Origin: a virus
Virus record (IMG/VR): IMGVR_UViG_3300048922_000258
Coordinates: 1-25,278 of that record
Length of the DNA stretch: 25,278 bases
Strand: one strand, 5' to 3'
Shown here: piece by piece, positions 1,878 through 17,893 of the stretch
Numbering within the stretch: position 1 is the stretch's first letter
Layout of the letters: the number at the start of each line of letters is the position of its first letter
Translations under genes and position numbers: made by a program
The notes under the pieces: generated by a model
Databases searched by the model: none
Told to the model about the DNA's origin: nothing
What the model saw: only the letters and a program-made list of their open reading frames with translations

Positions 1878-3062
1878 ATGGGTTTGAAGATCAATCGCCT
1901 GACGGCGAGACGGGTTGCTACGGTGACAGAGCCTGGATACCACGCAGACGGCGGTGGCCTGTACCTACAGGTTACCGCCTCCGGGGCAAAGAGCTGGGTG
2001 TTCCGATATCGCTTTGAGGGGAGGCGCCCAGAAATGGGACTTGGCCCGCTGCATGTTATTGGCTTGGCCGATGCGCGGGTGGCGGCTGATGCCGCTAGGA
2101 AGTTGGTTCAAGCCGGGCAAGATCCGCTTGCGGGGAGGCGTGCAGCCGCCGTGGCCACATCCTCGGTTCCCACCTTCTGGGAGGCGGCTGTCGCATACAT
2201 CGCGGAACGGCAGGCGGGCTGGACGAACCCGAAGCATGCGGGCCAATGGACAAGCACACTGGAGACCTACGCCAAGCCGGTGCTGGGAGACCTGAGGGTT
2301 GATCGAATCGAGACAGACCACGTCCTGGCCGTACTCAGGCCCATTTGGGCAACCAAGACGGAGACGGCCAGCCGGGTCAGACAGCGAGTGGAGGCCGTGC
2401 TGGACTCGGCTACGGTCCAGAAGAAGCGAACAGGCGATAACCCTGCCCGCTGGCGCGGTCATCTGGCTGTGATCCTTCCGAAGCCCACCGCCGTCACAAA
2501 GGTCGAGAATTTCGCCGCCCTACCGTATGCGGAGCTTCCCAGCTTCATGGTCGCCCTAAGATCCCGCCACGGCGAGGCAGCGCGCGCCTTGGAGTTCACC
2601 ATCTACACGGCCGCCCGAACCAGCATGACTCTTGGCGCGGTTCCAAGAGAGGTGGACCTTGCGTCAGGTACGTGGACCGTCCCATGGGACAGGATGAAGG
2701 GCAAGGTCGAGCACACAATCCCCCTCTCGCCGCCGGCATTGACGTTGGCGCGGCAGCGCATGGATCGGCCATTGCTTTTCCCCAACGACCTCACATCTGA
2801 GCCACTGAGCGAGAACGCGATGCTTGCGCTCCTGAAGCGCATGGACTACGGGCATATTACCGTCCATGGGTTCAGATCGACCTTTAAAGACTGGGCCAGC
2901 GAGATTAGCGACTTCCCAGACGACCTCTCGGAAGCAGCGCTCGCCCATAAGATTCGGGACAAGGCGAAGGCAGCCTACAAGCGTGGGACGATGATTGCGA
3001 AGCGGCGGGCACTGATGAACGCATGGGCGGCCTACTGCCTCAACATGAAGTCGCCCTTCTGA
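1878..3062 (+). CDS. int: P4-type tyrosine integrase
   Basis: This site-specific recombinase integrates and excises the prophage. The N-terminus (residues 1-90) is the DUF4102 arm-binding domain of P4-like integrases (HADGGGLYLQVTASGAKSWV). A core-binding helical region covers about 98-190 and the catalytic domain about 215-390. The full catalytic set is visible: Arg247 (TAARTS), Lys274 or Lys276 in RMKGKVEH, His330-x-x-Arg333 (HGFRST), His357 (ALAHK) and Tyr367 (AAYKRG). The 394-aa length is normal. The start is ATG 1878 with AGGA just upstream. The segment after the first Arg reads TSMTLGAVPREVD, where the family usually has TGE..GARW.EID; this is a local divergence that leaves the catalytic residues intact. 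The gene faces into the prophage. Confidence 0.95.
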   Translation: MGLKINRLTARRVATVTEPGYHADGGGLYLQVTASGAKSWVFRYRFEGRRPEMGLGPLHVIGLADARVAADAARKLVQAGQDPLAGRRAAAVATSSVPTFWEAAVAYIAERQAGWTNPKHAGQWTSTLETYAKPVLGDLRVDRIETDHVLAVLRPIWATKTETASRVRQRVEAVLDSATVQKKRTGDNPARWRGHLAVILPKPTAVTKVENFAALPYAELPSFMVALRSRHGEAARALEFTIYTAARTSMTLGAVPREVDLASGTWTVPWDRMKGKVEHTIPLSPPALTLARQRMDRPLLFPNDLTSEPLSENAMLALLKRMDYGHITVHGFRSTFKDWASEISDFPDDLSEAALAHKIRDKAKAAYKRGTMIAKRRALMNAWAAYCLNMKSPF

Positions 3063-3130
3063 CAAATGCTGGAGGCACTTGCAGCGGGACAATGCGTGTG
3101 CGACTCTCCCGCCGTTCAAAGGGACTTGAG

Positions 3131-3559
3131 ATGATGACAGTGCTCGCTTATTCGGCCGACATTGCTGAACTGATTCAAGGTGTTGCGTGTCCGCCAGCAG
3201 ACGCTGTGGACGAAGCACGCGATTGCTATCGATTCGTCCATGATCCAATGGGCGCAAGCTCTTTCATTCCGGTGGGCAAACTCAATCCGCGCCGAATGAA
3301 TAACTCGCCTGAAAACGTCATTTGCAGCATGCTCGCACTTTCATTTTTCTCAAACGATACTCTAGCGCGCAAGAGATACAGCGCTATTATCAAAAGTCAT
3401 CCAATGGCCAAGAAATCGCTTGGCACGCATATCGCCATAGGAAAAATCGAGATAGGCGATGGCCAATCGACTGTGCCAGATGGTAACAGTCATTTTGATT
3501 TCCACCCGCATCAAGGTATTGATCTACCGGCTCGATTTACAGTCATCGGTGAGCTGTGA
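3131..3559 (+). CDS. Unknown protein, first gene of an accessory two-gene cassette
   Basis: This is a 142-aa protein of unknown function. I chose ATG 3131 because AAAGGGA at 3118-3124 sits at good ribosome-site spacing. The frame stays open back to 3023, inside the integrase, but those extra codons read like antisense or overlap. Visible features are an NVICSMLALSFFSND segment, an ARKRYSAIIKSHPMAKKSLG basic stretch, and a His/Asp-rich end (DGNSHFDFHPHQGIDL) that could bind metal. There is no signal peptide or membrane segment. The gene overlaps the next one by a single base (TGATG), so the two are translationally coupled and probably act together. Base composition is visibly more AT-rich than in the phage structural genes, as expected for recently acquired cargo. 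It lies directly downstream of int. Confidence 0.75.
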   Translation: MMTVLAYSADIAELIQGVACPPADAVDEARDCYRFVHDPMGASSFIPVGKLNPRRMNNSPENVICSMLALSFFSNDTLARKRYSAIIKSHPMAKKSLGTHIAIGKIEIGDGQSTVPDGNSHFDFHPHQGIDLPARFTVIGEL

Positions 3560-4620
3560 TGGCAAATCCGAATGCTGCCATGCGCAAGATTGCAGGAAGG
3601 GCGTTCAAGGGCAATGAGTTGCCGACGTTCACCTGGAACGCGGACCTAGTCTACTTCGACGGCCCGTTCATTAGCCTCTTCAAATCAGATCGCGACGAAG
3701 ACGCATTGTTCGTCTGGATGGACTGCGACCGACGCAAAAATCGCTGGTGCATCATTCAAGTCGCGCGCACCACTTTGCGGCAATATTTGGATGGGAGCAT
3801 CCCACTGCTTGACGTGCTAAGTCGCGCAGGCGACCTTTATTTCTACGACATAGGAGCGTCGGGGAAACGAAGTAACTTTGTAGTCGCACCGCTGGCCAAC
3901 GTGCCGGTCGACTACCTACCTGCCCCTGACTCTTATCTGGATTTAGATTACGCCACTGAAGCGGCACATCAACTTGCGACGGAACAGACGAGTCTATGTA
4001 AGTTCCACGTGGATGGCGACCTGTACCTGGAGGACGTATCCAGCCTCACCAAGATTATAAATCAGCTCTACTCATTTCATTACGGACTTGCCTACGGCCA
4101 CAGAACGGCCGTTCACAACAAGCTTTCCGAGATCATGTCGAGCTGGCGCGGCGGAATAAATGCCGTAAATATCTTCTCTGGATTACGGAGTGTCATCCCC
4201 TCCATTCATCGCCCTAAGATAAACAAGCTGCAGTACGCATCACCCGGTTCCATCGAGCTTGACGCACTCCCGCACTTAGCAAAGCATATTGAAGATTCTA
4301 TTCGAAGCATCAGCACGGACGATGAATTCGAAAAAACTCAAAAGCTTTATGATGATGCCTATACTTATTTCAAAAAAGAGAAACTTTCTGGGTTTGACGA
4401 CCACAGCTCGTCTCGGGCGACCAACCTAAGCCCTGCACAGGCAAGCCAACTTGAACTGTTTTGCGACGCATTCTTCGATGCCTTTCAATGGAATGCCCAC
4501 AAAACTACGTTCACAAGCCTCGATAATAGCCCTCTCTCCAGGCTACGCGTGTTGCTAGCATATTACCGTCGCGCGAGACAGATCGTCTACATGATGAACG
4601 CCGGCAAGGTAAAACTTTAG
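3559..4620 (+). CDS. DUF6575-like protein, second gene of the accessory cassette
   Basis: The start is ATG 3559, overlapping the previous stop (GTG 3556 is an alternative), with GGTGAG just upstream. The product is about 353 aa. Its N-terminal third (residues about 20-125) follows a pattern I recall for the uncharacterised DUF6575 family: LVYFDGPFISLFKS, then ALFVWMDCD...RWCIIQVARTTL, a DGSIPLLDVL segment, and a proline-rich LANVPVDYLPAPDS. The remainder is mostly helical with no recognised catalytic motif, and ends in a basic YYRRARQIVYMMNAGKVKL tail. No signal peptide or transmembrane segment is evident. Position beside an integrase, coupling to a small partner and low GC fit a self-contained lysogenic-conversion or phage-defence module. 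That role is inference; the DUF assignment is from memory. Confidence 0.7.
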   Translation: MANPNAAMRKIAGRAFKGNELPTFTWNADLVYFDGPFISLFKSDRDEDALFVWMDCDRRKNRWCIIQVARTTLRQYLDGSIPLLDVLSRAGDLYFYDIGASGKRSNFVVAPLANVPVDYLPAPDSYLDLDYATEAAHQLATEQTSLCKFHVDGDLYLEDVSSLTKIINQLYSFHYGLAYGHRTAVHNKLSEIMSSWRGGINAVNIFSGLRSVIPSIHRPKINKLQYASPGSIELDALPHLAKHIEDSIRSISTDDEFEKTQKLYDDAYTYFKKEKLSGFDDHSSSRATNLSPAQASQLELFCDAFFDAFQWNAHKTTFTSLDNSPLSRLRVLLAYYRRARQIVYMMNAGKVKL

Positions 4621-5191: not shown

Positions 5192-5368
5192 AGCCGCCTT
5201 TAACGCGTTAACTCTGCGGATAAGCGCACTGCGTGTGCCAGGCGGCTTAGAAGTCTGCCTGACTCTGGGCCCGAATCAAAGACTTGCATTGAATCGATTT
5301 CTGGAAGCCGCCCGCCTGAGCCGTTGCGGCACAAGGGGCCTATCAGGAGTTTTCTGGAAGCAAAGCCG

Positions 5369-5749
5369 TCAGATACGAGGGTGCTGCCGCCCGCTCGCGC
5401 TTAACCGCCCCTTCCTCGGATCCGTCGCCCTGGGCTTGGTCTCCGCGGGCGGCCGGATCGGCTGCAGCGCCGCCATCACCCGGGCGGACGCGGCAGCAGC
5501 CGCCTCGTCCAGCCGCCGCGCCTGCTGCTGTTGCTCGCGGGTCGGGGGCAAGCCCGGCAGAGGCGTGGCCGGCGCGATGGGCGTGCTGTCGGTCAGGGGG
5601 TCCACGGCCTCGCGCAGCGGCAGGCCCGGGTAGAGCCCCACCGCACACCAGTGCTCAGCCAAGCGCCTATCCTGGCGCACGCTATCAGCTGTCACGAACC
5701 GTCCCTGCTCGGCGTCCCTACCTTTGAGTGGACCGACTCCGGCCCACAC
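5369..5749 (-). pseudogene. Truncated paralogue of the 6269-6775 gene
   Basis: The frame encodes 126 aa whose middle (LAEHWCAVGLYPGLPLREAV, then TPLPGLPPTREQQQQARRLD and AAAAASARVMAALQPIRPPA) matches the gene at 6269-6775 almost residue for residue. The N-terminal third of the longer copy, including its tryptophan-rich start, is absent. It is replaced by about 17 unrelated codons that run up to the AhpD-like gene. The C-terminal dozen residues also differ. It is most likely a decaying or recombined copy, although the frame is intact and expression cannot be excluded. Function is unknown for both copies. Confidence 0.55.
5401..5685. repeat. Direct repeat, left copy (with 6301-6585)
   Basis: This stretch aligns to 6301-6585 at a constant offset of exactly 900 bases with no visible gap. 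For example, 5461-5520 matches 6361-6420 at 57 of 60 positions. Similarity falls to background on both sides. The two copies bracket the AhpD-like gene. Confidence 0.9.
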
Positions 5750-5771
5750 TTAGAGGAAAAGGACGTTAGAA

Positions 5772-6230
5772 ATGAACCGAGCGAACTGGTTTGTGGTCTC
5801 TCCCGAGGGTGCCAAAGCGGTTGGACAGCTCCATCACTTTGTGACCACCGGCACATCGTTGCCCTCAAAATTGATCCACCTGGTGTTCTTGCGCGTTTCT
5901 CAACTGAATGGATGCGCGCACTGCATAGACATCCACACACGCGATCTACTCAAGGAAGGCTTGCCCTTCGACACAATCACCCTTCTGCCTGTTTGGCACG
6001 AAGCCGCGTACCTGTTCTCGGAGCAAGAGCGCGCCGCGTTGGCATGGTCTGAGGAAGTGACGCTTGTCAGCGAGACCCACGCATCTGACGAGGCGTACCA
6101 GGCCGTGGCCGCAGCCTTCAGCGAGAAGGACCTTGTCGACCTCACGCTCACCATCGCGGCAATGAACGCGATCAATCGGCTAGGCGTGAGCTTCAGGCTC
6201 AAGCCCCGGGCCAAGCCCGCTACCGAGTAA
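5772..6230 (+). CDS. AhpD-like carboxymuconolactone decarboxylase family protein
   Basis: This 152-aa protein belongs to the AhpD/CMD alpha-helical family, whose members use a CxxC pair to reduce peroxides. The diagnostic segment is LNGCAHCIDIHTRDL, with Cys48, Cys51 and His55 in the family arrangement and an upstream helix LIHLVFLRVSQ. The C-terminus carries the second conserved helix (DLTLTIAAMNAINRLGVSFR). The length is usual for the single-domain form. ATG 5772 is preceded by AAAAGGA at suitable spacing. It would act in the cytoplasm as an alkylhydroperoxidase or thiol oxidoreductase; the substrate cannot be told. It is cargo rather than a phage function: it is flanked by two copies of a phage-type gene and faces opposite to both. 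No peroxiredoxin partner is nearby. Confidence 0.85.
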   Translation: MNRANWFVVSPEGAKAVGQLHHFVTTGTSLPSKLIHLVFLRVSQLNGCAHCIDIHTRDLLKEGLPFDTITLLPVWHEAAYLFSEQERAALAWSEEVTLVSETHASDEAYQAVAAAFSEKDLVDLTLTIAAMNAINRLGVSFRLKPRAKPATE

Positions 6231-6268
6231 CGACACCGGCGAGCGCTGGGCATTGGCCCAGCGCCGCG

Positions 6269-6775
6269 TCAGCGCCGCTTTGATCCGACTTTTGTCTCCC
6301 TCAACCGAGCCTTAGCGGGATCCGTCAGTCGGGGCTTTGCCTCCGCCGGCGGCCGGATCGGCTCCAGCGCCGCCATCACCCGGGCGGACGCGGCAGCAGC
6401 CGCCTCGTCCAGCCGCTGGGCCTGCTGCTGTTGCTCGCGGGTCGGCGGCAAGCCAAGCAACGGCGGACGCGGAATGATGGGTGTGCTGTCGGTAAGGCGG
6501 ACAACTGCCTCGCGCAGCGGCAGGTCCGGATACAGCCTGGCCGCGCACCATCGCTCGGCGAAGCGCTTCCCCTGACGCAGGCTGACCACTCTTACGCTCT
6601 TGGTCTGCCACATCTTCAACGCATTGAGCGTCATGCGTAGGCCGCCAGCGCGATCAGGGGTCAGGCTGGCCACCTCCCGGCCATTCCACCACAAGCTCCA
6701 CCGGTCACCCATCTGCACCCAGCCCGAAGGGATGGGAGCAGTGCGGAAACCTTGGTAGCCGAGGGAAGGAAGCAT
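6269..6775 (-). CDS. Hypothetical prophage protein, full-length copy of a duplicated gene
   Basis: This is a 168-aa product from ATG 6775. The N-terminal half is compact and tryptophan-rich (GWVQMGDRWSLWWNGREVASL), with beta-hairpin spacing. A basic helix follows (LRQGKRFAERWCAARLYP), then a proline-rich linker, a glutamine/alanine helix (REQQQQAQRLDEAAAAASA) and a basic C-terminus. The mix of a small N-terminal fold and a helical basic tail could suit a nucleic-acid or protein-binding adaptor, but I do not recognise the family. No strong ribosome site precedes the ATG. The truncated relative at 5369-5749 indicates a tandem duplication. The gene runs in the same direction as the Ntn-hydrolase candidate immediately upstream (stop at 6820) and is probably co-transcribed with it. 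Confidence 0.65.
   Translation of the reverse strand: MLPSLGYQGFRTAPIPSGWVQMGDRWSLWWNGREVASLTPDRAGGLRMTLNALKMWQTKSVRVVSLRQGKRFAERWCAARLYPDLPLREAVVRLTDSTPIIPRPPLLGLPPTREQQQQAQRLDEAAAAASARVMAALEPIRPPAEAKPRLTDPAKARLRETKVGSKRR
6301..6585. repeat. Direct repeat, right copy (with 5401-5685)
   Basis: This is the counterpart of 5401-5685 at a fixed 900-base offset. It falls inside the intact gene 6269-6775 and covers its central and C-terminal coding part. Confidence 0.9.
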
Positions 6776-6819
6776 GCCGAGCAGCTTACGCCTCGCCGTC
6801 GCACAGCCTGCGACCTGTC

Positions 6820-7434
6820 TTAGACCTCACCTAGGTCCCGTATGAACGATTCGCCCTTCCTCAAAACCGTCGCGAGCAACCGCCCGCCCGCAACCTGCCG
6901 GCCGCTGACCTTATTCAGCCAAGCCGCTTGGATCCGACCAGCGGTCAATACGTCCTCCGGCGCAAAGCTGTCCGGCCTACCCCGCAGCGGCTCTCCAGGG
7001 GAAGCCAGCCCCCCTTCCAGCCGCTGCACCCGCGTAGGCTCCTCGCTGACACTTTTGGCATACGCTGTCGCCACCATGCGGTTCGCCTGCGGCGACCACC
7101 CACCCAGGACAAGCTCCGTCCCCATTTCCGACCGTCCAATCCCTGCGTCCTGCGCGGCCTTCTCGTAGGCGGGCCACAGCTGGTCAACGACCAGCCCAAG
7201 CTCCCTGCCGAGCTGCTCCATGGTGAAGTCCGCGCGGAAGCTAGCTTGCAGGGCAAGTTCGTAAATAAGGAGAAAGAACCGCGCGCTCCCGCGCGTCGCG
7301 AGCACCAGATTGTGTTGCGGGATCAGCAGCGCCTTAGCGCCGGCCGACTTGGCTGCAGTGCGCGTGTCCTCGGCCAGCGTGTCGACGGCGACAAGCAGTT
7401 GATCCGGCGATAGCAAAACGTTGAGGATGCTCAA
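6820..7434 (-). CDS. Proteasome/HslV-like Ntn-hydrolase candidate
   Basis: This is a 204-aa product. The only usable start after an in-frame TGA (7459-7461) is TTG at 7434; no good ribosome site precedes it. After removal of Met the chain begins Ser-Ile-Leu-Asn. Numbered from that Ser, Asp lies at 17 (LLVAVDT) and Lys at 33 (SAGAKALLI), the exact spacing of Thr1, Asp17 and Lys33 in proteasome beta subunits and HslV. The surrounding pattern also fits: strand, DG-like turn, strand LVAVD, then AKALLIPQHNLVLATRGSARFF, matching the family's KKV..I...I.GT.AG.AAD and leading into a helix. A later LVLGGWSPQANRMVATAY resembles the family's central strands. It could be an amidohydrolase or protease with a serine nucleophile; partner and substrate are unknown. 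The fold call is by eye. Confidence 0.55.
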   Translation of the reverse strand: MSILNVLLSPDQLLVAVDTLAEDTRTAAKSAGAKALLIPQHNLVLATRGSARFFLLIYELALQASFRADFTMEQLGRELGLVVDQLWPAYEKAAQDAGIGRSEMGTELVLGGWSPQANRMVATAYAKSVSEEPTRVQRLEGGLASPGEPLRGRPDSFAPEDVLTAGRIQAAWLNKVSGRQVAGGRLLATVLRKGESFIRDLGEV

Positions 7435-7499
7435 GGCTCGGGTCCGTTTGGGGCCGACTCACTATTGCCGCAACTCAACCGTCTGTCTATGGAGGCCCC

Positions 7500-7784
7500 A
7501 TGCTCACCGCCCCCCCGCTGGCGCATCGCCTTGAACAGGTCGAAGCGCAACTGGAGGCCCAAAGTGGCTACATCAAGGCACTGGAATATGGCTTGCGCGC
7601 GACCATTGCAGCGCATCCCGCCAGTCAGACACTTTCTCTGCTCTGGGCCAACATGCTGCCCCATATTTCGGAGCAACATGCCGGCTTAGGAAGCTGCGAT
7701 TTTAATACTGCGCTCCAGCGAAGCCTGAGGCTCGTCGGAGCGCAGATTGACGAGTCAGCGCCTACTCACTCCACCGACGCGTAG
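7500..7784 (+). CDS. Small coiled-coil protein of unknown function
   Basis: This is a 94-aa product from ATG 7500, with GGAGG at 7491-7495 four bases upstream. Residues 9-35 (RLEQVEAQLEAQSGYIKALE) form a heptad-like helix suited to dimerisation. The rest is a short mixed segment with LLWANMLPHISEQ. No known domain is recognised. It is divergent from the Ntn-hydrolase candidate and converges on the BLUF gene, overlapping its 3' end by 19 bases. An 82-codon minus-strand frame across the same DNA is less convincing, because this strand has the better ribosome site. Confidence 0.6.
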   Translation: MLTAPPLAHRLEQVEAQLEAQSGYIKALEYGLRATIAAHPASQTLSLLWANMLPHISEQHAGLGSCDFNTALQRSLRLVGAQIDESAPTHSTDA

Positions 7785-8215
7785 TGCGAAACAATGCCAG
7801 TCAGGAAGTCGATTGCAGTCGGGTTCCTGCCACGCGGGTCGCCCCGGAGTTTGAACCCAGTCCAATCCGCAGTTGCAAGACGCCCCACCTCTGCAGCTTC
7901 GGCCGGCAGCCATTTCATCGGCCAGAACGGCAAGCGCCGCGTAGCAACATTCCCCCGGTGAAGCTCCATGATTTCGCTGTGGCTGCTTGAACCGAGAACC
8001 CGTGAATAGGCCACATCCACGCCATCAGCCGGCCCCTCGATGTACTGCAAAAAGCGGGCTCCATCGAACAGCACAACACCGGTGACACCGGCTTCCAGAT
8101 TAAATCGAGCAGCGTCGTCAACTAGCTCGCACAACTTACTGCTATGCAACCCAAGCGCGTCTCCAGCGATCCCGGCCGTTGCTACGCTCACATACACCAC
8201 CGCCTTAATAGGCAC
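7766..8215 (-). CDS. BLUF-domain blue-light sensor protein
   Basis: This is a stand-alone BLUF domain that would bind FAD and sense blue light. GTG 8215 is chosen because AAGGAG (8226-8231) lies about ten bases upstream; GTG 8221 is possible. That gives 149 aa, whereas the open frame runs back to 8293. Key flavin-site residues are all present: Tyr8 (AVVYVS), Asn39 (ARFNLEAGVTG) and Gln57 (RFLQYIEGP). Asn39-Gly46-Gln57 has the same spacing as Asn45-Gly52-Gln63 of AppA, and the later FWPM matches the AppA Trp104/Met106 pair. The first loop is about seven residues longer than in AppA. No output domain is attached, so signalling would need a partner. It is divergent from the SRAP gene. Confidence 0.88.
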   Translation of the reverse strand: MPIKAVVYVSVATAGIAGDALGLHSSKLCELVDDAARFNLEAGVTGVVLFDGARFLQYIEGPADGVDVAYSRVLGSSSHSEIMELHRGNVATRRLPFWPMKWLPAEAAEVGRLATADWTGFKLRGDPRGRNPTAIDFLTGIVSHYASVE

Positions 8216-8364
8216 GCGCACATCTCTCCTTGCTAGATCCCCCCCGAGCCCAGCCCCGGAACCGTACCATCTAAAACAGATCGTATGGCTCAATCTGGTG
8301 AAAATGTGCGCTCCATCCCGAACGATTCACGTAGCGGGGACACCCTCAGCCTCACTCTTCAGCT

Positions 8365-9030
8365 ATGTGCGGAAGATTCGTTCAGCTCCCCGTTGTCGAC
8401 TTTGGCCAGCCCGGTCTGGCTGACCTCGCCCCCGGCTTGGCCAGCATCGAACCGAGCTACAACCTCGCCCCGACCCAGCGGGCCTCGATCATCCTCGACC
8501 GCGGCGAAGGGCGGCAGGTCACCCGGATGGCCTGGGGCCTGCTGCCGTTCTGGGCCAAGGCCAAGGGCCTGCAGGGCAAGACCATTAACGCTCGCATCGA
8601 GACGGTGGCCGAGAAGAACGCCTTCAGGACCGCCTTCAAGAAGCGCCGCTGCGTCATCCCCATGGCCGGGTACTACGAATGGTCGGTGAGCCCGGAGGAC
8701 GGGAAGAAGGATCCATGGTTCATCCACGCCGCCGGGCCGCTGCTGGCGGCCGGCCTGTGGGAAGACAGCAGCCCGCTTCTGCCCGACGGCAACCTGGGCA
8801 CCTTCACCATCATCACCGGCGACAGCAGCGGCGTCTCGGCGGATATCCACGACCGAATGCCGGTCTGGTTGCAGGCCGGTCAGATCGATGACTGGATGAC
8901 CGCCAGCGCCGGTGATGCCATGGCCATGCTCCTGGCCAGCGAACCGCCGGCCATGGAGGCCTACCGCGTCAGCCGCGCGGTCAACACCCCGCGCAACAAC
9001 ACCGAGGGGCTGTTGGAGCCTGTGGCTTAA
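8365..9030 (+). CDS. SRAP/YedK-HMCES family abasic-site processing protein
   Basis: Family members cap abasic sites in single-stranded DNA by a thiazolidine crosslink to Cys2. The mature N-terminus MCGRF places the catalytic cysteine correctly and fixes the start at 8365, although no ribosome site is visible upstream. Further hallmarks are YNLAPTQ (residues 32-38), INARIET (about 74-80, with the active-site Asn), CVIPMAGYYEW with the catalytic Glu (about 96-106), and DIHDRMPVW with the active-site His (about 160). The 221-aa length is typical. Older annotation calls this an SOS response-associated peptidase. In a prophage it could protect phage or host DNA during damage or replication; that is inference. 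Its stop overlaps the stop of the converging 65-aa gene. Confidence 0.93.
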   Translation: MCGRFVQLPVVDFGQPGLADLAPGLASIEPSYNLAPTQRASIILDRGEGRQVTRMAWGLLPFWAKAKGLQGKTINARIETVAEKNAFRTAFKKRRCVIPMAGYYEWSVSPEDGKKDPWFIHAAGPLLAAGLWEDSSPLLPDGNLGTFTIITGDSSGVSADIHDRMPVWLQAGQIDDWMTASAGDAMAMLLASEPPAMEAYRVSRAVNTPRNNTEGLLEPVA

Positions 9031-9224
9031 ACCTGCGGTTGGGCAACAATCTCCTCGGCGCCCAGGTCGTACTCGGCCGCCGTCACGTACGGGGCCGCGG
9101 CCTGCGGGGAAACGAAGAAGTTGAAGATGGCACCGGAGCCATCGATCGCGCGGAAGATCAACTGCACCTTCCCCGGGTTATCCGCGTTCTCGATCTTCTG
9201 GTACAGCTGTGCACGTGCAAGCAT
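9027..9224 (-). CDS. Small hypothetical protein after the tail-fibre gene
   Basis: This is a 65-aa product. ATG 9224 has AGGAGA (9231-9236) at ideal spacing; upstream in-frame codons back to 9269 lie in the terminator and are rejected. The sequence has alternating strands (KVQLIFRAI, GAIFNFFV) and an acidic C-terminus, with no known motif. It lies just beyond the terminator of the tail-fibre gene, so it depends on read-through or its own promoter. It could be a fibre chaperone or a cargo gene; neither can be shown. Confidence 0.6.
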   Translation of the reverse strand: MLARAQLYQKIENADNPGKVQLIFRAIDGSGAIFNFFVSPQAAAPYVTAAEYDLGAEEIVAQPQV

Positions 9225-9240
9225 GGTGTATCTCCTGTAG

Positions 9241-9267
9241 AAAAAGCGGGGCAAGAGCCAGCCCCGC
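9241..9267 (-). terminator. Terminator of the late (tail) operon
   Basis: On the minus strand, GCGGGGC, an eight-base loop and GCCCCGC are followed directly by TTTTT (the AAAAA at 9241-9245). It begins six bases after the tail-fibre stop, so it is a convincing end of the late transcript. Confidence 0.85.
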
Positions 9268-9272
9268 ATGGC

Positions 9273-12200
9273 TTACTGCTCGATGGACACAATCGACAGG
9301 CTCTGGGTGATGTTCTGACTATCAAAGCTTCCCGACTGGTGGGTCACATTCTGTTCGGTGAAGCTGACGATCTCGGCACGATAGCTGCGCCGCGTGGTGC
9401 CATTGACGTTGTCGTTAAGTGTCACCGACGCGTTCCACACAGAATCCGCAATGTCGGGCCCATCTGTTTCGTTGCGGATGTCCACGCTGCCAGTGATCTG
9501 GATCTGCTGCCATAGCGCTTCACCTTGACCGTCCAGCTGACGATAAAGGTTTATGACACCACCGTTGCTGCCAGCACCTGCAACGAAACCCTGAGATCCA
9601 AGCGCAGTTTTCCTGCGGATGTGTCGTCGGTTGAAGCCGACCACCACCTGCTTGTTCCGTCCGTTGGTATCGAACGGGCCTACTAGCACGCTTGTGCCAA
9701 TCGTCTGCGTGGTCGTGGACTGTGCCGCATTGCGCAGGATACCGGCAGCGATGGAGCCGCCCCAATACGCGTTACCGTTGCGATCCATCCACATGGTGGC
9801 GTTGGCCTTGTTGGCGTTGGCCGCTCCCACGTTGGGACCGAAGTAATCGATCAACCCGTCAGCACCAAAGTTGTTGCCGATGATGCGCTGCGAGTTGCCC
9901 GACCACACGCGCAGATAGCCCTGCGTCATTTCAAAACCGTCAGCACCGCCTGGCGTGAGAATGTTGACCGCATTCGCCAGGATGTTGAGCGCCGAAGTTT
10001 GCCCAGTGATACCCAGCTGCATACCGGCGCTGATGCCGTTGGCCTGCACTGCCAAGTTCCACTGAGCAGACGCCTGATCGCCAGGCTCATACGGCGGTGG
10101 TTTAGTGGCACCCGCTGCGACTTCGCACACCATCGGGTATACGATCCAGAAGTATGGATCACTCTCGTTGTTGCCGCTGATCTGCACAATCAACCTACCG
10201 CGAACAGTACCCTGCGGCGGCGAACCGATGAAGAAGTCTCGCGGGTACTGTGCGAGGCTCGCATTGCTCTGGCCACGTGGCGGGTTAATCGACGTTCCCA
10301 TGTAGCCGACAACCTTTCCTTGGAAGTCAACGCATTCCACAAGCAGCTGACTGCGGCACCGGTGAGTGTTGACATAGGCTGAGACGCAATAGGTCTTGGC
10401 AACATCAAGCGGGAACGAATGGTTCTGCATCGCCACGTTGTCAGCTGCGCCAACGTTGTAATAGCCCGATTTGCGCGATCCCAGCGCCGATTTGACTCCG
10501 AAAGGTATGTAAGGAATGCTCCCGCCACCGGGCAGAGGATCGCCAAGTTCCTGCCAGCCGGATGGATTCCAATCCCAGCCCCACCCAGTGCGATCCCAAT
10601 TCGGGAAGCTGCTGTTGGGAATCAGATTGCCACCACCACCTTGATTGTTGACCTGCACGCGCATTTCTTGCACGACAGATGCATCAGCCTTACCGGCGAC
10701 CGATGCTTGCACGCCGCTGATCAAACTGGCCTGAGCATTGATCTGCTCACCCTGCTGAGTGACGGTGGCGGTCAAGGAGTTGACGCCACTTGCCGCCGCG
10801 TTAGCAGTCAGAGCAGCGTTGTATCCCTCAGTCGCGTCCTGCAACACGATGTCATCGAACTCAATGTTCGCGCCATTGTTGGCTGTGCTGGAGACTGCAA
10901 CCTGCAGGACTGCCTGATTCTTGCCCTCGGGAACGGTCAAGTAACCCGAGATCCTGACGTAAGAGCCGAACGGAATGTTCGCAGCACTGATCGTGGCGAA
11001 GTTGGGATAGCTCAACCCCGTATTGTTCAAGCTCTGCGCCATACGCAGCTGCGCGCTGCCTGCCGTGTCGTTCACGCCGGATCGAGTAACCCATGCCTCG
11101 GCGTAGTACACCCGACCGGGCGTAACGTCGAATGTCTGCAGCGGCGCGGATCGCGTCCCACCACCATCCAACTTCATGCGGAGAGAGCGTGATCCTGTCC
11201 GACCATTGGCGACAACGACCGCATAGTTGCCGACCGAGAAGCCTTCCGCCTTCGCTTCAAAGCTGCCGTCAAGGAACATGTTGTTCCCAGCCCGATTGGC
11301 TTGCTCCAGGTTCGCAGCGACGGTCGTGACTGCTTGTCCCTGTGCGCTAACTACTCCCTGCAGGTTGGCGACGGTTCCAGTCAGCGTTGCAGTTGCGGAT
11401 GCGTTGGAAGCCCCTTGGGCTTGAATTTCATCAATAGACGGCTTGTAGCCACTGGCAACACTACCCGCCTCCAACTGGACGTTGTCCCATTCGACCCACT
11501 GGTCCGGAGCGTTCGTGCCATACGCGCGGATGTAAACACGGGCGCTCACGGCCGCCGCCGGGGCATTTGCGGTCGTGAACGTACGCCGCATCCACCCGCC
11601 AGCGGTAATGGTCTGATTCCCTGGCGTTCCGGTATACGAAATGACAGCGCCACTGCTGTCGCGCCAAGCCACTTGAAGGAACCAGCGCGTACCAACCGTG
11701 CCGCGCAAGTACGCCGACAAGGTCACTGGCTGACCAGGAATAATCTTCGATGGCAGGATCGTCTGGTTGGTCTGGAACTCCCAGTAGCCAGTGGTCGGTA
11801 CGTTGGCCATGTCCCAGCGAGCCGCCTTTGAACTGCTGGGAAGCGCCGAATCGACGTAAGTACGCGTCACCACCCCGCTGCCGAGCCCAGCGCTTGAGCC
11901 TGCCCACCCCGCAGCGCCGCCACCTCCGCTCTCAAAACCGCTGTTACCCAGCAAGTTGTCTCCGCCGACACTGGCCAGAGACGCCGACACGTTGGTGATC
12001 GCATTGCCCACGCTGGCAATGTCGTTGCCTTGCAGCGTGACCTGGGACTGCAGCAACTGCAGCGCCGAGTTGCTCGCCTTTCCCTCAACGTCCGTGCGCA
12101 GCGCACTGATCAGATTGGCCTGGGCGCTGATCTGACCACCTTGGATCTGAACGGTATTGCTCAGGGCCTGCAGCCCATCCGCGTTGGCAAGTACGTCCGT

Positions 12201-14120
12201 CACCTCCTCAACCATCACGTCGTCAACGCGCAGCACACCTGCGGTGTGGTCGCAGACGATGTTCAGCCGAAGCGCCGAGATGGTAGTGGCGGTTACCACC
12301 GACTCAACCTTTGTCCAGTCGGTGCGCCCCGCGGCAAACGCCAGGCCCGCGACCAGACCACCGTCTTGGTTTCCAATTCGCACCTTGCCGTTTCCGGAGC
12401 TGCCGTTGTAGTCGGCGTCTGTCTGGTAGTAGGCGCTCACGCGGTACTTCTTGCCGGTGAACACCGGCATGTTGGCACCACCATTTGCATTGATAGTGCG
12501 GATGCCCGACGCGCCAAGGACCCGCAGGCACTTCCCGGTGCGACCCTCAGCCACCACTGCCACTGTAGGCGTATTGGGGAATGTCCAGCCGCCGTCGTGC
12601 TCGAAGCTGCCGTCGAGCACCATATTGCTTCCCTGAGCAATCAGCCCTGGCAACTTCGCATTGACCGCCGTCACGGCCTGACTGAGGGCCGCAACGTCGC
12701 TCACCCTGGCCAGTGCCTCTTCGGTCACCGACGCCGCGGTGGCAAGGCCGCCGGCGCCGGCGGGCATGCGCGCCTCCATCAAGCTGATGCGCTGCACCTG
12801 CGCGCTGTCGGCGGCCACTCGCGCTTTCAACTCTTCATAGGCGAGGCCTGCCGTCAGCTGTAGCGGATCCGTGCCGGTGTAGTTGCCCCGCAGCTGCACA
12901 GCCAGGGTGTTGCGCTGGCTCGCCTCCGCAGCGATCGCGTTGGTGCGAGCAACCGTCTCGGCCTGCACCAGCGCCACAGACGCGCCCGGCGTCGGGCGGC
13001 CGACCGCCACCCAGTCCACCAGGTAGTAGTTCGCCACCGCCTGCGCCACGCCCGGCTGCAGGCGGATCCGGTCGACGGTGCCCGGCCACCAGGCAATGTC
13101 CTGCACATCCACCGTGGCCACGCCGTTGGCGTCCCACGCCGGCTCGGCGATGGACACGCGCTTCTGCGTGTTCCAGGCCTGATCGGTCGGCGTGATCCAC
13201 TGCAGGAAGCCGGCCCACGTCGGCGAGCCAACTCGCTTCACGCGCAGCTTCACGAAGCGGTATGCGCTGCCGTCCACGGCTAGCGCCGCCGGCGACTGCA
13301 CCCACGGGGTCGCCGCGGCATTGGCCGGCCGCAGCCAGCCGTCCACCAGCGTCGGCGTGCCATTGCCGGTCCAGCCCTCCACCGTCTGGTCGAAATACCA
13401 GATGGACCGGCTGTCGAACTGCGTGCCGCTGCCGGCGGCCACCTCGGCTACCTGGCGAGCGAGGGATTCGACCGCGCTCTGCCGGGTCTGCTGCTCCAGG
13501 CTGATCGCAGCCTCGCGGGCCAGCTTCTCGTTCAGCACCGCATCGGCCCGGGCACGCGCCTCGTCGGCGATGCCCTGCATGGCTTCGGCGTACTGCTGCT
13601 GGCGCAGAGTCGCCTCGGCCAGCAGATCCTGCGCAGCCTGCGCCATGGCAGCCGCTCGGGCCGCGGCTTCGGCAGCGTCGGCCCGCATGCGTGCCAGGGT
13701 CTCGGCGGCCAGCTTCTCCTGCTGCTCCACCAGGTCGGCAGTGGTGGTAGGCGGGGTGGCCTCCACCGTGCTGCCGGCACCGGGCTTGCCGCGCACGGTC
13801 GGGGTGATCCGGAACCACCACTTCTGGCCGCTGCCGTCGCTGTAGAGGTAGCGGGTCTCGGCGGTCCGGTGAATCTCGGTCCACGGACCTTGCGCGGACG
13901 GCCCGCGCTCGATCACGTAGACCACGCCTTCCTGGTCAACAGCCGCCCACTCCAGCAGTACGCCATCGGCCACCGGGTTCGGGGTAACCCCGTCCACCGG
14001 CGGCACGGCGGCTGCCTTGTACGGCATCGGAAACCAGTTGGCGTAGCGCGGCGCGGCCGGCGACGGGGAGGGCAAAGCGCTCCCGCCGATATCCACCAGC
14101 GTGAGTTTCCGTTGCAGCAT
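9273..14120 (-). CDS. Modular tail fibre / tail-tip receptor-binding protein
   Basis: This 1615-aa protein starts at ATG 14120 with GAGG upstream. An N-terminal fibronectin-III-like module lies at about 45-125 (VLLEWAAVDQEGVVYVIERG). A long alanine-rich coiled coil follows at about 126-225. Then come five jelly-roll, carbohydrate-binding-like modules starting near residues 235, 497, 718, 943 and 1163; the last four open with near-identical signatures (NMVLDGSFE, NLLGNSGFES, NMFLDGSFE, NLIPNSSFP). They are separated by helical stalk segments of repeated form (VTLQGNDIASV, VTQQGEQINAQ). A GpJ-like C-terminal part (QWNLAVQANGISAGMQLGIT) precedes a terminal beta domain. It presumably projects from the tail tip and binds a surface glycan. 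The large GpJ hub portion is missing here; the 18908-20875 gene may supply it. Confidence 0.88.
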   Translation of the reverse strand: MLQRKLTLVDIGGSALPSPSPAAPRYANWFPMPYKAAAVPPVDGVTPNPVADGVLLEWAAVDQEGVVYVIERGPSAQGPWTEIHRTAETRYLYSDGSGQKWWFRITPTVRGKPGAGSTVEATPPTTTADLVEQQEKLAAETLARMRADAAEAAARAAAMAQAAQDLLAEATLRQQQYAEAMQGIADEARARADAVLNEKLAREAAISLEQQTRQSAVESLARQVAEVAAGSGTQFDSRSIWYFDQTVEGWTGNGTPTLVDGWLRPANAAATPWVQSPAALAVDGSAYRFVKLRVKRVGSPTWAGFLQWITPTDQAWNTQKRVSIAEPAWDANGVATVDVQDIAWWPGTVDRIRLQPGVAQAVANYYLVDWVAVGRPTPGASVALVQAETVARTNAIAAEASQRNTLAVQLRGNYTGTDPLQLTAGLAYEELKARVAADSAQVQRISLMEARMPAGAGGLATAASVTEEALARVSDVAALSQAVTAVNAKLPGLIAQGSNMVLDGSFEHDGGWTFPNTPTVAVVAEGRTGKCLRVLGASGIRTINANGGANMPVFTGKKYRVSAYYQTDADYNGSSGNGKVRIGNQDGGLVAGLAFAAGRTDWTKVESVVTATTISALRLNIVCDHTAGVLRVDDVMVEEVTDVLANADGLQALSNTVQIQGGQISAQANLISALRTDVEGKASNSALQLLQSQVTLQGNDIASVGNAITNVSASLASVGGDNLLGNSGFESGGGGAAGWAGSSAGLGSGVVTRTYVDSALPSSSKAARWDMANVPTTGYWEFQTNQTILPSKIIPGQPVTLSAYLRGTVGTRWFLQVAWRDSSGAVISYTGTPGNQTITAGGWMRRTFTTANAPAAAVSARVYIRAYGTNAPDQWVEWDNVQLEAGSVASGYKPSIDEIQAQGASNASATATLTGTVANLQGVVSAQGQAVTTVAANLEQANRAGNNMFLDGSFEAKAEGFSVGNYAVVVANGRTGSRSLRMKLDGGGTRSAPLQTFDVTPGRVYYAEAWVTRSGVNDTAGSAQLRMAQSLNNTGLSYPNFATISAANIPFGSYVRISGYLTVPEGKNQAVLQVAVSSTANNGANIEFDDIVLQDATEGYNAALTANAAASGVNSLTATVTQQGEQINAQASLISGVQASVAGKADASVVQEMRVQVNNQGGGGNLIPNSSFPNWDRTGWGWDWNPSGWQELGDPLPGGGSIPYIPFGVKSALGSRKSGYYNVGAADNVAMQNHSFPLDVAKTYCVSAYVNTHRCRSQLLVECVDFQGKVVGYMGTSINPPRGQSNASLAQYPRDFFIGSPPQGTVRGRLIVQISGNNESDPYFWIVYPMVCEVAAGATKPPPYEPGDQASAQWNLAVQANGISAGMQLGITGQTSALNILANAVNILTPGGADGFEMTQGYLRVWSGNSQRIIGNNFGADGLIDYFGPNVGAANANKANATMWMDRNGNAYWGGSIAAGILRNAAQSTTTQTIGTSVLVGPFDTNGRNKQVVVGFNRRHIRRKTALGSQGFVAGAGSNGGVINLYRQLDGQGEALWQQIQITGSVDIRNETDGPDIADSVWNASVTLNDNVNGTTRRSYRAEIVSFTEQNVTHQSGSFDSQNITQSLSIVSIEQ

Positions 14121-14128
14121 GAGTTACC

Positions 14129-17100
14129 TCACATGGCGTTGAGCGATTGACGCAAGGCAGAGCTGGCCGACGAGCGGACGCCCTGCGTGGTGGTGGAAAG
14201 CAGGTCTTGGAGCAGGCCTTTCACGTCGGCCAGGAGCGCGTTGCTCTGCTGCACCGCGGTCGTGGTCGCGGCCTGGCCGTCGTTGTTCACGACCAGGTCG
14301 AACACGGCGCGGCTGAAGTTGTCCGGGAGGGCTTCGATTGCATCGGCCAAGGCCCCCATGCTGGTGCCGTCCTCCATATCGAGGTCGCCCACCTTCATGC
14401 CGCCGATCAGGCCAGTGACCTGGTCGTAGAGGCCGTTGTAGTCCTTGCCGCTGGCGTAGAGGTTCCGGCCAAAGCCCAAGGCCGCCTGAGCGGCCGCCTG
14501 CGCCGCGCTGGTGTCGCCGCCGGACACGGCGCGCTCCAGCTCCTTCATCGCCTCGCTGAGCTTCTCCTGGTCCGTCAGGGGCGACAGGTCGCTGATGGAA
14601 AGGCCGTACTGCATGGCCTTCTTGTCCTTGTCGATCTGCGCCTGCAGCTTGCCCATGTTCGTGGCGCGCAGCGCCTCGATCTTGGCCAGGTCCTCCGCGC
14701 GGGCGCCGGACAGGCCCAGTGCCTTGGCGTAGTCGTTGGCCGACTTCACCTGCTGGCGATAGGTTCGCTCGATGCTGAGCGCCTGCTGCTGGTAGCTCGA
14801 CAGGTCGCCGGTCAGGAGCTGGGTCGACACGTCGGCCATCAGCGTGGCGTAGTTGCCCAGCAGCCCGGTGACCTTCTGCACCTGGGTGGCCAGGTCCGTG
14901 CCGGCCACGCTGGCCAGATCCTGGAAGTAGTCAACGGCCTTGTTGACCTTCTCGATCTCCAGCCCATTCAGCGCGCGCCCGAGCTGGTCCGCATTGCCCA
15001 CGGCCAGCTCGATGGAGGCACCCAACGCAGTGAACACGTCAGAAGCTTCGAAGTAGCCGTCCAGCTGCCCGCCGAAGCCCGCCGCGTTCACAGCCTCGGA
15101 GAACAGGCGATTAGTCATGTCGGCCAGATAGGCCTCCAGCTGCGCCTTCGCCTCGGCCGAGTCCGCCGACAGCTGCAGCTTGCCCAGAGACACCTTGACC
15201 CCGGCCAGCTGCCCGGACAGGTCCACGCCGAGCTGCTTGGCCAGGTCAGTGGCCGCGCCGCGAACCTGCCGCGCAGCCATGTCGAACGTACGATCAATGC
15301 CAGGATCAAGCGCCGCGTACTGCGTCCACTTCTTGTCGCTGCGGAACAGTCCGCCCTTGGCCTTGATATCGGCGTAGGACTGGCCGCTGAAACCACCGAA
15401 CCCGTAGTCGCCCGTAATGCCCTGGCCGGTTACCTTTGGCGCGCTACGGCCGAACAGCTTCGCGTGGATGCTGGACCCCGACAGGATCGATGCCACCTTG
15501 TCGTTGAACCCCAGGCCGCGGAACCCCTTGTCGGCCAGCCCCACGGCACCGGCCGTGGCAATCTTGCCCGCCCAGCTTTCGCCGTTGGCAATGTCCCAGC
15601 CCTGATCGAACAGTTCGGCGTTCTTCATCATGCCGGCCACGATCCAGCCGATGATCGGGACCGCCGCTGCCGCAGACGATGCGGCACCGGCGCCCGCGGC
15701 AGCCGTTCCCCCGGCCGCCGATGCGCCACCGCCGGCGAACGCGGCGATGTTGTTGCCGAAGCCCATCAGGCTGCCAGCGCTGACACCACTACTCGCGGCG
15801 CCAGCTGCTGCGCCAAACAGGCCCTGCCCCTGCGACAGCAGCCCTGCCACGCTGCTCAGGTTCTGGCCACCAGCTGCAGATCCGTTGCCGCCGAACAGGC
15901 CCATGATGCTCTGCAGGCTCAGTCCACCGCCCTGCCCGTTGATCCCGTTCATGATCTGCGTCTGGATCGGAATCACGATCTTTTGCTTGAGGATCTCCGC
16001 GATCATGTCGCGCATCCCGCGCTTTGCGACGTTCTTCAGGTCATCCCACAGGTTGTGGAAGTTCCGGAGGCCATCCGCGGCGAAGTCGGCGAACGCATCA
16101 ACGCCATCAGCCGCGACCGACACGATGACGTTGGCCAAGGCCTCAGCGTTCGCCGCAGCCTCCTCGATCTGGATGGAAAGCTCGGCAGCTGCAGCTGCCG
16201 CGTCCAGCATGGCCCGCTCGTATTCCGCGTAGCTGCTGGCACCCTTGGCCAGAGCCAGCGCGTCCTGACCGCCGGCAGCCTCCGCTGCCTTCCGCAGCTC
16301 CTCGCGCATGTCCTTCTCGTTCACCAGCTTGCGGCGATAAAGCTCGCGTGCCCTGCCAACCTTGCCGAGCATGTCCAGCTCGGAGCCGAAGGTGGCCAGC
16401 AGCTGCTCCGGGCCGCCCATGGCCTTCTCGACCTCGGCCGCAACCTTGGCGTACTCCAAGGCGCTCTGGCCCATCAGCACGTTGGCATCGGCCTGCTCGA
16501 TGTTGCCCTTCGCCAACAGCGCGTTGTACTCGGCCATGTTGCCCAGGTGCTTGGCCATGGCCTCTGCAAGAGGGCCCTGCATCGCGCCGGCGGCTTCGTC
16601 GGCCTGCTGCTTGTAGCGGGCGATTTCCTCAGCACGACGCTTCGCGTCGGCATCGGCCTTGTCGCGCGCCCCTTTGTCGATGTTCCCGGTCGGCTTGTAG
16701 CCCACCGCATTCGATTTCAGCGCCGAATCCGGCAGCATCTGTCCGTTGTCGATCAGCGTGACCTGCGGGCCGTAGCGGCGGGTCAGCTCGCGCTGAATAC
16801 GCAGGCGCTCTGCCAGCAGCCTTTCGGCCTCCTTGTCTCGCTCCGGCGATGGGGCCTCCACGGTCAACAGCAGTTTGCGGCGGGCGAACAAGTCGCCCAT
16901 CTGCTCGTTCAGGGCATCCTCGGTTGCATCGTTCAGCGCGCCGGCCGATGCCCCTTCCAGCGCCTGCAGCTCGGCGTACCGCCCAATCAGGTTGACGATC
17001 TGGACCGCGCCTTCTGCCATCTGGCCGGTCAGCTCAGCCACCCATTTGGTAGCGGTGGCAAAGGCGTTTCGCGTTTGCTGCGAGGCCATGAACTCGGTCA

Positions 17101-17851
17101 GATTGTTGAGCGTTGGCAGCAGTTCCTCCGCCACACTGACCTTCAAGCCCATCATTGCCAGGTCGGCCTCCTGCGTGATCTCGCGCAGCCGGTTTGTCGC
17201 CTTCGTGGTCTTGCTGTCGATGATGGCGCCGGCAGCCTCAGCGGCGTCGCCCCACTGGCGGAATCCAGCGCTGTTGTTTCGCAGCAGCGGAATCAGCATC
17301 GATGAATCGCTGGCGATGGCCTCCATGTAGAAGGTCAGCTCGGACTGCGAAAGGTTCGCGCGCTCCAGGCTGTTGAAGTACATTCCCAGCGCATCCGGCC
17401 CAGAAAGCTTCCGCATCTGCTCGGCGGTCACGCCCGTACGGCGAGCGATGTTGTCGAAGAAATCGGCCATCGCGCCGCCGCCCGTCCGGACGTAATCGCC
17501 GATCTTGTCCTGCACATCCTTCAGGATATCCGCCAGCTTTTCGTGGCTGATGCCCACGACGTTTGCACCGGCTGCCATCCGCTGAAACGCTTCGGACGTG
17601 CTACCCGACAGGGTCGCCATCCGGTCGTACTGCACGCTCAGGTCGGCGACCTGCCGAGACCAGGCAACGGCCGCAGCCGTGGTCGTGGTCAGGCCAGACG
17701 AGATCGCCAGGCCGATGGCCGTCCCCGCCCTCCGCGCTACGGCCTGCATGCGGTCCATGGACTGCGAGAACTGGCGCTCTGCCTTGCCTGCGTCCTTCAC
17801 GAATGAGCCCGTCTTCATCAAGAGGTCGACGGTGAGGGTGTAGAGGGACAT
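14129..17851 (-). CDS. Tail length tape measure protein
   Basis: This 1240-aa protein sets tail length by spanning the growing tail tube. ATG 17851 is preceded by GGAG (17857-17860); the GTG at 17881 lies in the upstream hairpin and is rejected. The N-terminus (KTGSFVKDAGKAERQFSQSM) and the following helical repeats are typical of the family. A tape-measure core covers about 30-260. Long Ala/Glu/Lys coiled regions follow, and a Gly/Ala-rich hydrophobic stretch near 640-730 (GASAAGGTAAAGAGAASSAA) probably passes the membrane during DNA entry. At the usual 0.15 nm per residue the tail would be about 185 nm. It overlaps nothing and ends 8 bases before the fibre start, indicating co-transcription. 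Confidence 0.93.
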   Translation of the reverse strand: MSLYTLTVDLLMKTGSFVKDAGKAERQFSQSMDRMQAVARRAGTAIGLAISSGLTTTTAAAVAWSRQVADLSVQYDRMATLSGSTSEAFQRMAAGANVVGISHEKLADILKDVQDKIGDYVRTGGGAMADFFDNIARRTGVTAEQMRKLSGPDALGMYFNSLERANLSQSELTFYMEAIASDSSMLIPLLRNNSAGFRQWGDAAEAAGAIIDSKTTKATNRLREITQEADLAMMGLKVSVAEELLPTLNNLTEFMASQQTRNAFATATKWVAELTGQMAEGAVQIVNLIGRYAELQALEGASAGALNDATEDALNEQMGDLFARRKLLLTVEAPSPERDKEAERLLAERLRIQRELTRRYGPQVTLIDNGQMLPDSALKSNAVGYKPTGNIDKGARDKADADAKRRAEEIARYKQQADEAAGAMQGPLAEAMAKHLGNMAEYNALLAKGNIEQADANVLMGQSALEYAKVAAEVEKAMGGPEQLLATFGSELDMLGKVGRARELYRRKLVNEKDMREELRKAAEAAGGQDALALAKGASSYAEYERAMLDAAAAAAELSIQIEEAAANAEALANVIVSVAADGVDAFADFAADGLRNFHNLWDDLKNVAKRGMRDMIAEILKQKIVIPIQTQIMNGINGQGGGLSLQSIMGLFGGNGSAAGGQNLSSVAGLLSQGQGLFGAAAGAASSGVSAGSLMGFGNNIAAFAGGGASAAGGTAAAGAGAASSAAAAVPIIGWIVAGMMKNAELFDQGWDIANGESWAGKIATAGAVGLADKGFRGLGFNDKVASILSGSSIHAKLFGRSAPKVTGQGITGDYGFGGFSGQSYADIKAKGGLFRSDKKWTQYAALDPGIDRTFDMAARQVRGAATDLAKQLGVDLSGQLAGVKVSLGKLQLSADSAEAKAQLEAYLADMTNRLFSEAVNAAGFGGQLDGYFEASDVFTALGASIELAVGNADQLGRALNGLEIEKVNKAVDYFQDLASVAGTDLATQVQKVTGLLGNYATLMADVSTQLLTGDLSSYQQQALSIERTYRQQVKSANDYAKALGLSGARAEDLAKIEALRATNMGKLQAQIDKDKKAMQYGLSISDLSPLTDQEKLSEAMKELERAVSGGDTSAAQAAAQAALGFGRNLYASGKDYNGLYDQVTGLIGGMKVGDLDMEDGTSMGALADAIEALPDNFSRAVFDLVVNNDGQAATTTAVQQSNALLADVKGLLQDLLSTTTQGVRSSASSALRQSLNAM

Positions 17852-17870
17852 GTCGGCTCCAGAAACGAGA

Positions 17871-17893
17871 AAGCCCCGCACTAGGCGGGGCTT
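17871..17893. terminator. Hairpin just ahead of the tape-measure gene
   Basis: AAGCCCCGC and GCGGGGCTT form a nine-bp stem with a five-base loop. The T-run is better on the plus side (TTTT at 17892-17895) than on the minus side. It lies inside the late transcript, 20 bases before the tape-measure start, so it may attenuate or protect the mRNA rather than end it. Confidence 0.55.

Follow-up and report, generated by a model that had tools for sequence, protein, structure and literature searches.

IMG/VR record IMGVR_UViG_3300048922_000258, a viral sequence 25,278 bases long (its full length is here called the window), carries a minus-strand open reading frame, 7434..6820, whose product begins with Met-Ser and, after Met removal, has Ser1, Asp17, and Lys33 at exactly the positions given in a preliminary description of this DNA. 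The question raised by this locus is whether a prophage encodes a working proteasome-like hydrolase and, if so, to which branch of that family it belongs and what it does. We favor, as the probable answer, an active serine Ntn hydrolase of the proteasome-like family, encoded by an accessory (moron) gene that Stenotrophomonas prophages transcribe independently.

In 2021, Fuchs, Alva and Lupas described 22 new proteasome-like clusters, including the phage-borne PPH and AAH, whose function is unknown (PMC8665760). The definition of the family does not demand hydrolytic activity on peptides, and a propeptide is absent from its members other than 20S beta and HslV (PMC8665760). Two features first regarded as unusual are therefore less so: a propeptide-free nucleophile is normal outside 20S beta and HslV, and a phage-borne location has precedents in PPH and AAH.

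Coding region and catalytic residues

The gene starts with TTG at 7434, ends with a stop codon at 6820-6822, and encodes 204 amino acids, with mature Ser1/Asp17/Lys33 and a putative oxyanion Gly48. The TTG start, remarked upon early as uncommon, is indeed a minority state in the family (9 TTG, 1 GTG, and 42 ATG in 52 members). This ORF alone, among the 177 window ORFs of at least 50 amino acids, combines S/T/C at position 1 with D at 17 and K at 33, and residue shuffling leads to an expectation of 0.015 ORFs per window with such spacing. Judged from the spacing alone, a chance origin is unlikely but not excluded; the doubt is removed by conservation among homologues. The same Met-Ser start is found in about 75 full-length homologues from Stenotrophomonas prophages and genomes, and Ser2, Asp18, and Lys34 of the precursor (mature Ser1, Asp17, and Lys33) are invariant in 52/52 aligned close members, so that a chance match is ruled out by the shared start, the invariance of the triad, and the shuffling count together.

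The homologue alignment originally proposed as a check gives the same answer at greater distance. Across 12 sequences whose identity falls as low as 20-31%, S2, D18, and K34 are again invariant, in a set with only 12 invariant columns (M1, S2, L4, D18, T19, K34, A46, G49, G112, P146, G183, and G184). Precursor G49, which corresponds to mature Gly48, occupies the oxyanion glycine position, with a one-residue shift relative to Gly47 of the proteasome (PMC8665760). Counting against our reading, auxiliary 20S residues of the Asp166/Ser169 type are not evident in the hydrolase, where an Ala stands before the GG motif. Median dN/dS is 0.15 over 1084 pairs of hydrolase genes, with dS near saturation, and the 52 members differ by synonymous changes in their catalytic-site codons (GAC/GAT 29/23, AAG/AAA 48/4, and AGC/AGT 50/2). 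By these sequence comparisons, the minus-strand ORF has the marks of a real gene under purifying selection.

The same data bear on whether the protein might be a catalytically dead pseudo-hydrolase serving as an inhibitor or scaffold, the inhibitor type having been suggested in the preliminary description. The proteasome itself has inactive members, namely its alpha subunits and several of its beta subunits, and the best fold matches of the hydrolase model include inactive proteasome subunits; however, relatives at 85% to 20% identity retain Ser1, Asp17, Lys33, and Gly48 without exception. Because the triad and Gly48 do not vary, the catalytic codons turn over synonymously, and dN/dS is 0.15, we regard a pseudo-enzyme as highly improbable.

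A distant relative, L231 (G686 C1:1600258-1600866), which also scores on phrog_13702, has Thr1 with Asp17 and Lys33, and possibly links the Ser1 and Thr1 proteasome-like families.

Predicted fold

An AlphaFold model of the hydrolase, built from the 52-sequence alignment, reached a pLDDT of 88.1 and a pTM of 0.85. Foldseek searches with this model matched 20S proteasome beta chains with E-values down to 6e-8, and VIA-align gave Z 16.9 over 173 residues (2.8 A) against 20S beta and Z 16.6 over 180 residues against Anbu 5nyw. Model residue 2 (Ser1) superposes on chain residue 1, the catalytic Thr, in structures such as 5lex_K and 5nyw_C, which would place a serine nucleophile in the Thr1 position of 20S beta and Anbu, as had been proposed. 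A second model, of a phrog_13702 member at 20% identity (pLDDT 85.1), shows the same fold, with Z 16.9 against 20S and Z 16.3 against Anbu, although the two models are not fully independent, as the alignment of the second contains the first family. The alpha-beta-beta-alpha core of the proteasome beta type is present in both, and the structure prediction and Foldseek search suggested as a check thus bear out the expected core and its 20S beta matches. A search of a viral structure library also found a few uncharacterized phage proteins that fold similarly, one of them from Vibrio phage phi 3. With AlphaFold, Foldseek, and VIA-align in agreement, the proteasome-like Ntn fold first postulated for this protein is well supported as a prediction.

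Searches of Pfam, NCBIfam, and PDB sequences with the hydrolase returned no informative match, and membership in the family therefore rests on predicted structure together with active-site conservation. When compared with HslV and Anbu in small profile-profile tests, the hydrolase showed no link to either, but this comparison is uninformative, since the positive control also failed, the same tests not having joined HslV to Anbu.

The fold matches also weigh on a different chemistry. Ser1 Ntn enzymes beyond the proteasome include acylases, and the protein might accordingly be an Ntn-clan amidase or acylase with a small-molecule substrate (a metabolite, signal, or antibiotic), whose amide it would cut to the benefit of the lysogen. 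Moron-type expression would suit such a benefit, and the host genomes already own HslV and Anbu. Yet the top structural matches are all proteasome beta and Anbu rather than acylases, and the hydrolase is compact, without a substrate-pocket domain; we consider this alternative unlikely.

In the hydrolase model, helices 51-65 and 72-96 (H1 and H2) are both present, a single helix (159-177) lies between the last core strands, ahead of the GG motif and its strand, and the chain terminates in strand 195-203, with 204 as the last residue and no C-terminal H5 extension. The H3 segment is modeled as a proline-rich loop (SPGEPLRGRPDSFA; local pLDDT about 69-89), and this region is nearly the same in the phrog_13702 member, being helical at residues 142-145 only. 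In 20S beta, the helix pair H3-H4, which follows the Ser129 loop, makes ring-ring contacts (PMC8665760). The replacement of H3 by a loop therefore suggests a monomer or an assembly unlike the canonical stacked double ring, and we hold with moderate confidence that the hydrolase would not form the usual double ring.

Loss of H3 also speaks for a protein ligase or transpeptidase in place of a hydrolase, since connectase, a known proteasome-like homologue from archaea, is a monomeric ligase and provides a precedent (PMC8665760). The hydrolase nevertheless keeps H1/H2 and lacks the two-helix insertion of connectase, and a ligase of this kind appears very improbable.

Comparison with known proteasome-like systems

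The hydrolase belongs to the same kind as the phage-borne proteasome homologues already known. Like PPH and AAH, it is a proteasome-like Ntn protein of tailed phages or prophages with no linked AAA+ partner; no AAA+ unfoldase was seen among the recurrent neighbors checked, a classified subset. PPH differs in being about 140 residues long and without H2, whereas the hydrolase has 204 residues, with H1 and H2 and without H3, and its size and H2 rule out identity with PPH. Helices H1-H4 occur in all clusters except connectase and PPH/RPC (PMC8665760). GPH, DPH, and AAH, compared by description only, are thus stated to have H1-H4, which argues against membership of the hydrolase in any of them if its predicted H3 loss is real.

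Anbu (5nyw and 5nyg) shares the fold, the nucleophile freed by Met removal, and the D17/K33 pattern, but it starts with Thr1, has a C-terminal H5 helix that serves its split ring, and matches PF00227. None of these features is found in the hydrolase, and the lack of H5 in the model rules out an Anbu. HslV has the same catalytic layout of Nuc1/Asp17/Lys33, but it is a chromosomal Thr1 protein that works with HslU and matches PF00227, whereas the hydrolase is prophage-borne. An HslV is excluded by Ser1, the absence of a PF00227 match, and the absence of an unfoldase among the neighbors classified. The S. maltophilia host carries PF00227 genes of its own. Connectase is ruled out by the presence of H1/H2 and the lack of a two-helix insertion after S3, and a 20S beta or double-ring type is disfavored by the model, in which the H3 region is a loop and the H3-H4 pair is missing. 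The hydrolase family appears to be new: it is unnamed in the databases checked, has no Pfam or NCBIfam model, and is predicted to have a proline-rich loop in place of H3.

Family distribution and database naming

Close full-length relatives, at 59-85% identity, were found on about 80 IMG/VR contigs, and those in reference genomes occur in Stenotrophomonas species. Sampled searches of other Gammaproteobacteria and Pseudomonadota added almost no further relatives, indicating that this is mainly a Stenotrophomonas prophage gene. Of 50,697 phage records none matched the family, none of 72,556 plasmid records did so convincingly, and viral contigs searched from L173 and L175, two of the catalogued loci, yielded no further relatives. 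The gene is sometimes present in two copies per genome. Copies L067 and L068 contain a frameshift, and in one contig (C86 of G281) the gene is split into two same-strand pieces, L170 (residues 1-55) and L171 (residues 54-204), with about 8.4 kb between them, a pattern resembling disruption by an inserted element. Since some copies are frameshifted or split, the gene is dispensable.

The wider family includes phrog_13702, labeled terminase large subunit in PHROGs, which, with all 27 members tested, matches the hydrolase in sequence at 1e-6 over the N-terminal half. The two have sequence family, fold, and catalytic residues in common, but the phrog_13702 members seen (L172 and L173) overlap or abut a tape measure gene, directly behind it, whereas the window hydrolase gene is a separately promoted moron; other divergent members lie at other prophage or chromosomal sites. 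Because the modeled member adopts an Ntn fold and the genes of members are located behind that for the tape measure, the terminase label is rejected, and on the evidence of the model phrog_13702 appears to be a proteasome-like Ntn family whose present name is an error.

Promoter and genomic context

A candidate sigma-70-type promoter for the hydrolase gene lies on the minus strand at 7461..7489, where TAGACA (7489-7484) is separated by a 17-nt spacer from AATAGT (7466-7461), 26 nt from the start codon. It is the sole promoter-like site within 5200-9300. A matching -35/-10 pair is found at nearly the same place in about 70/78 relatives, despite variable flanks, and in 56/78 loci the spacer is exactly 17 nt and the start codon lies 25-26 nt away. 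The short 5′ leader (7435..7460, minus strand) has no obvious Shine-Dalgarno sequence and may form a weak hairpin. In many relatives, the interval from the -10 box to the start codon holds a variable inverted repeat, as at 7435-7460. The case for a conserved leader hairpin is weak, as is its covariation (61.5% of cells paired).

The tail operon ends on the minus strand at 9273..17881, with the tape measure gene at 17881-14129 and a large product at 14120-9273, inferred from its position and carbohydrate-binding domains to be a tail-tip/receptor-type protein. Just past this operon, an intrinsic-terminator-like hairpin (9246..9267, minus strand) parts it from an accessory segment bounded on its other side by a plus-strand tyrosine integrase gene (1878..3062). 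Directly after the integrase gene lies the anti-phage system PD-T4-10 (3023..4620, plus strand; A 3023-3559, B 3556-4620; PADLOC E 1.6e-37 and 1.3e-120). Apart from PD-T4-10 A/B, the segment contains a BLUF protein, SRAP, small unknowns, and phrog_26768, and relatives carry different genes in the corresponding segment, among them those for a Mrr-type nuclease, a BstA-like KilA-N protein, and a PDC-S52 candidate. This swapped-gene segment between tail genes and integrase has the layout of a moron/defense hotspot, in accord with the prophage accessory location proposed initially.

The downstream neighbor of the hydrolase gene, phrog_26768 (6269..6775, minus strand), is frequent but not obligate, and a divergent gene of 94 aa (7500..7784, plus strand) occupies the same position in about 35 relatives. 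A protein with a BLUF blue-light sensor domain is encoded at 7766-8293, and about 30 relatives likewise have a homologue close to the hydrolase gene. Direct 300-nt copies, 80% alike, at 5395-5694 and 6295-6594 represent a phrog_26768 gene fragment 900 nt from the full copy and suggest cassette exchange between prophages. One relative (L144:6916-7980) carries, downstream of the hydrolase gene, a ClpP/SDH-type serine protease-like gene that scores below Pfam's cut-off, giving this locus a second protease-like gene.

This arrangement bears on a virion- or tail-related role, such as a maturation protease or assembly factor. Such a role would agree with the position of the window gene beside the tail operon and with the overlapping or abutting tape measure genes of L172 and L173 in the wider family. 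Against it, the terminator parts the hydrolase gene from the tail operon, and the gene has its own promoter and is one of many swapped accessory genes, which leaves this role distinctly unlikely. The hotspot also brings up a proteasome-fold enzyme acting outside any ring, that is, a prophage serine Ntn protease or ligase modifying a host or invading-phage protein, for instance as a superinfection or anti-phage effector. PADLOC gave no match for the hydrolase protein itself. We treat this effector role as possible, if rather doubtful.

Proposed function and significance

Our best reading remains that the hydrolase acts on peptide bonds as a lysogenic-conversion enzyme and is probably not a canonical double-ring protease. 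By the chemistry of the family, host methionine aminopeptidase would remove Met, Ser being a small second residue, and thereby free the amine and hydroxyl of Ser1. Lys33 and Asp17 would activate Ser1, Gly48 would contribute the oxyanion hole, and an amide bond, most likely a peptide bond, would be cut through an acyl-enzyme. Its working form would probably be a monomer or some assembly different from a stacked double ring. More tentatively, the enzyme may be made in the lysogen and act on a host or incoming-phage protein, in lysogenic conversion or superinfection. Moron-driven lysogenic conversion is known in S. maltophilia phages (PMC6469090). Counting against such a role, phrog_13702 relatives lie directly behind the tape measure gene, where it is less natural.

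The hydrolase adds to the proteasome-like family an unnamed and apparently catalytic phage branch, in which Ser1 is invariant and the ring-contact helix is, by prediction, lost; this combination would make it a simple test case for proteasome relatives without rings or unfoldases. The analysis also corrects what appears to be a wrong terminase label for phrog_13702, and it points to a moron with a promoter candidate and a known catalytic residue in prophages of a common opportunistic bacterium.
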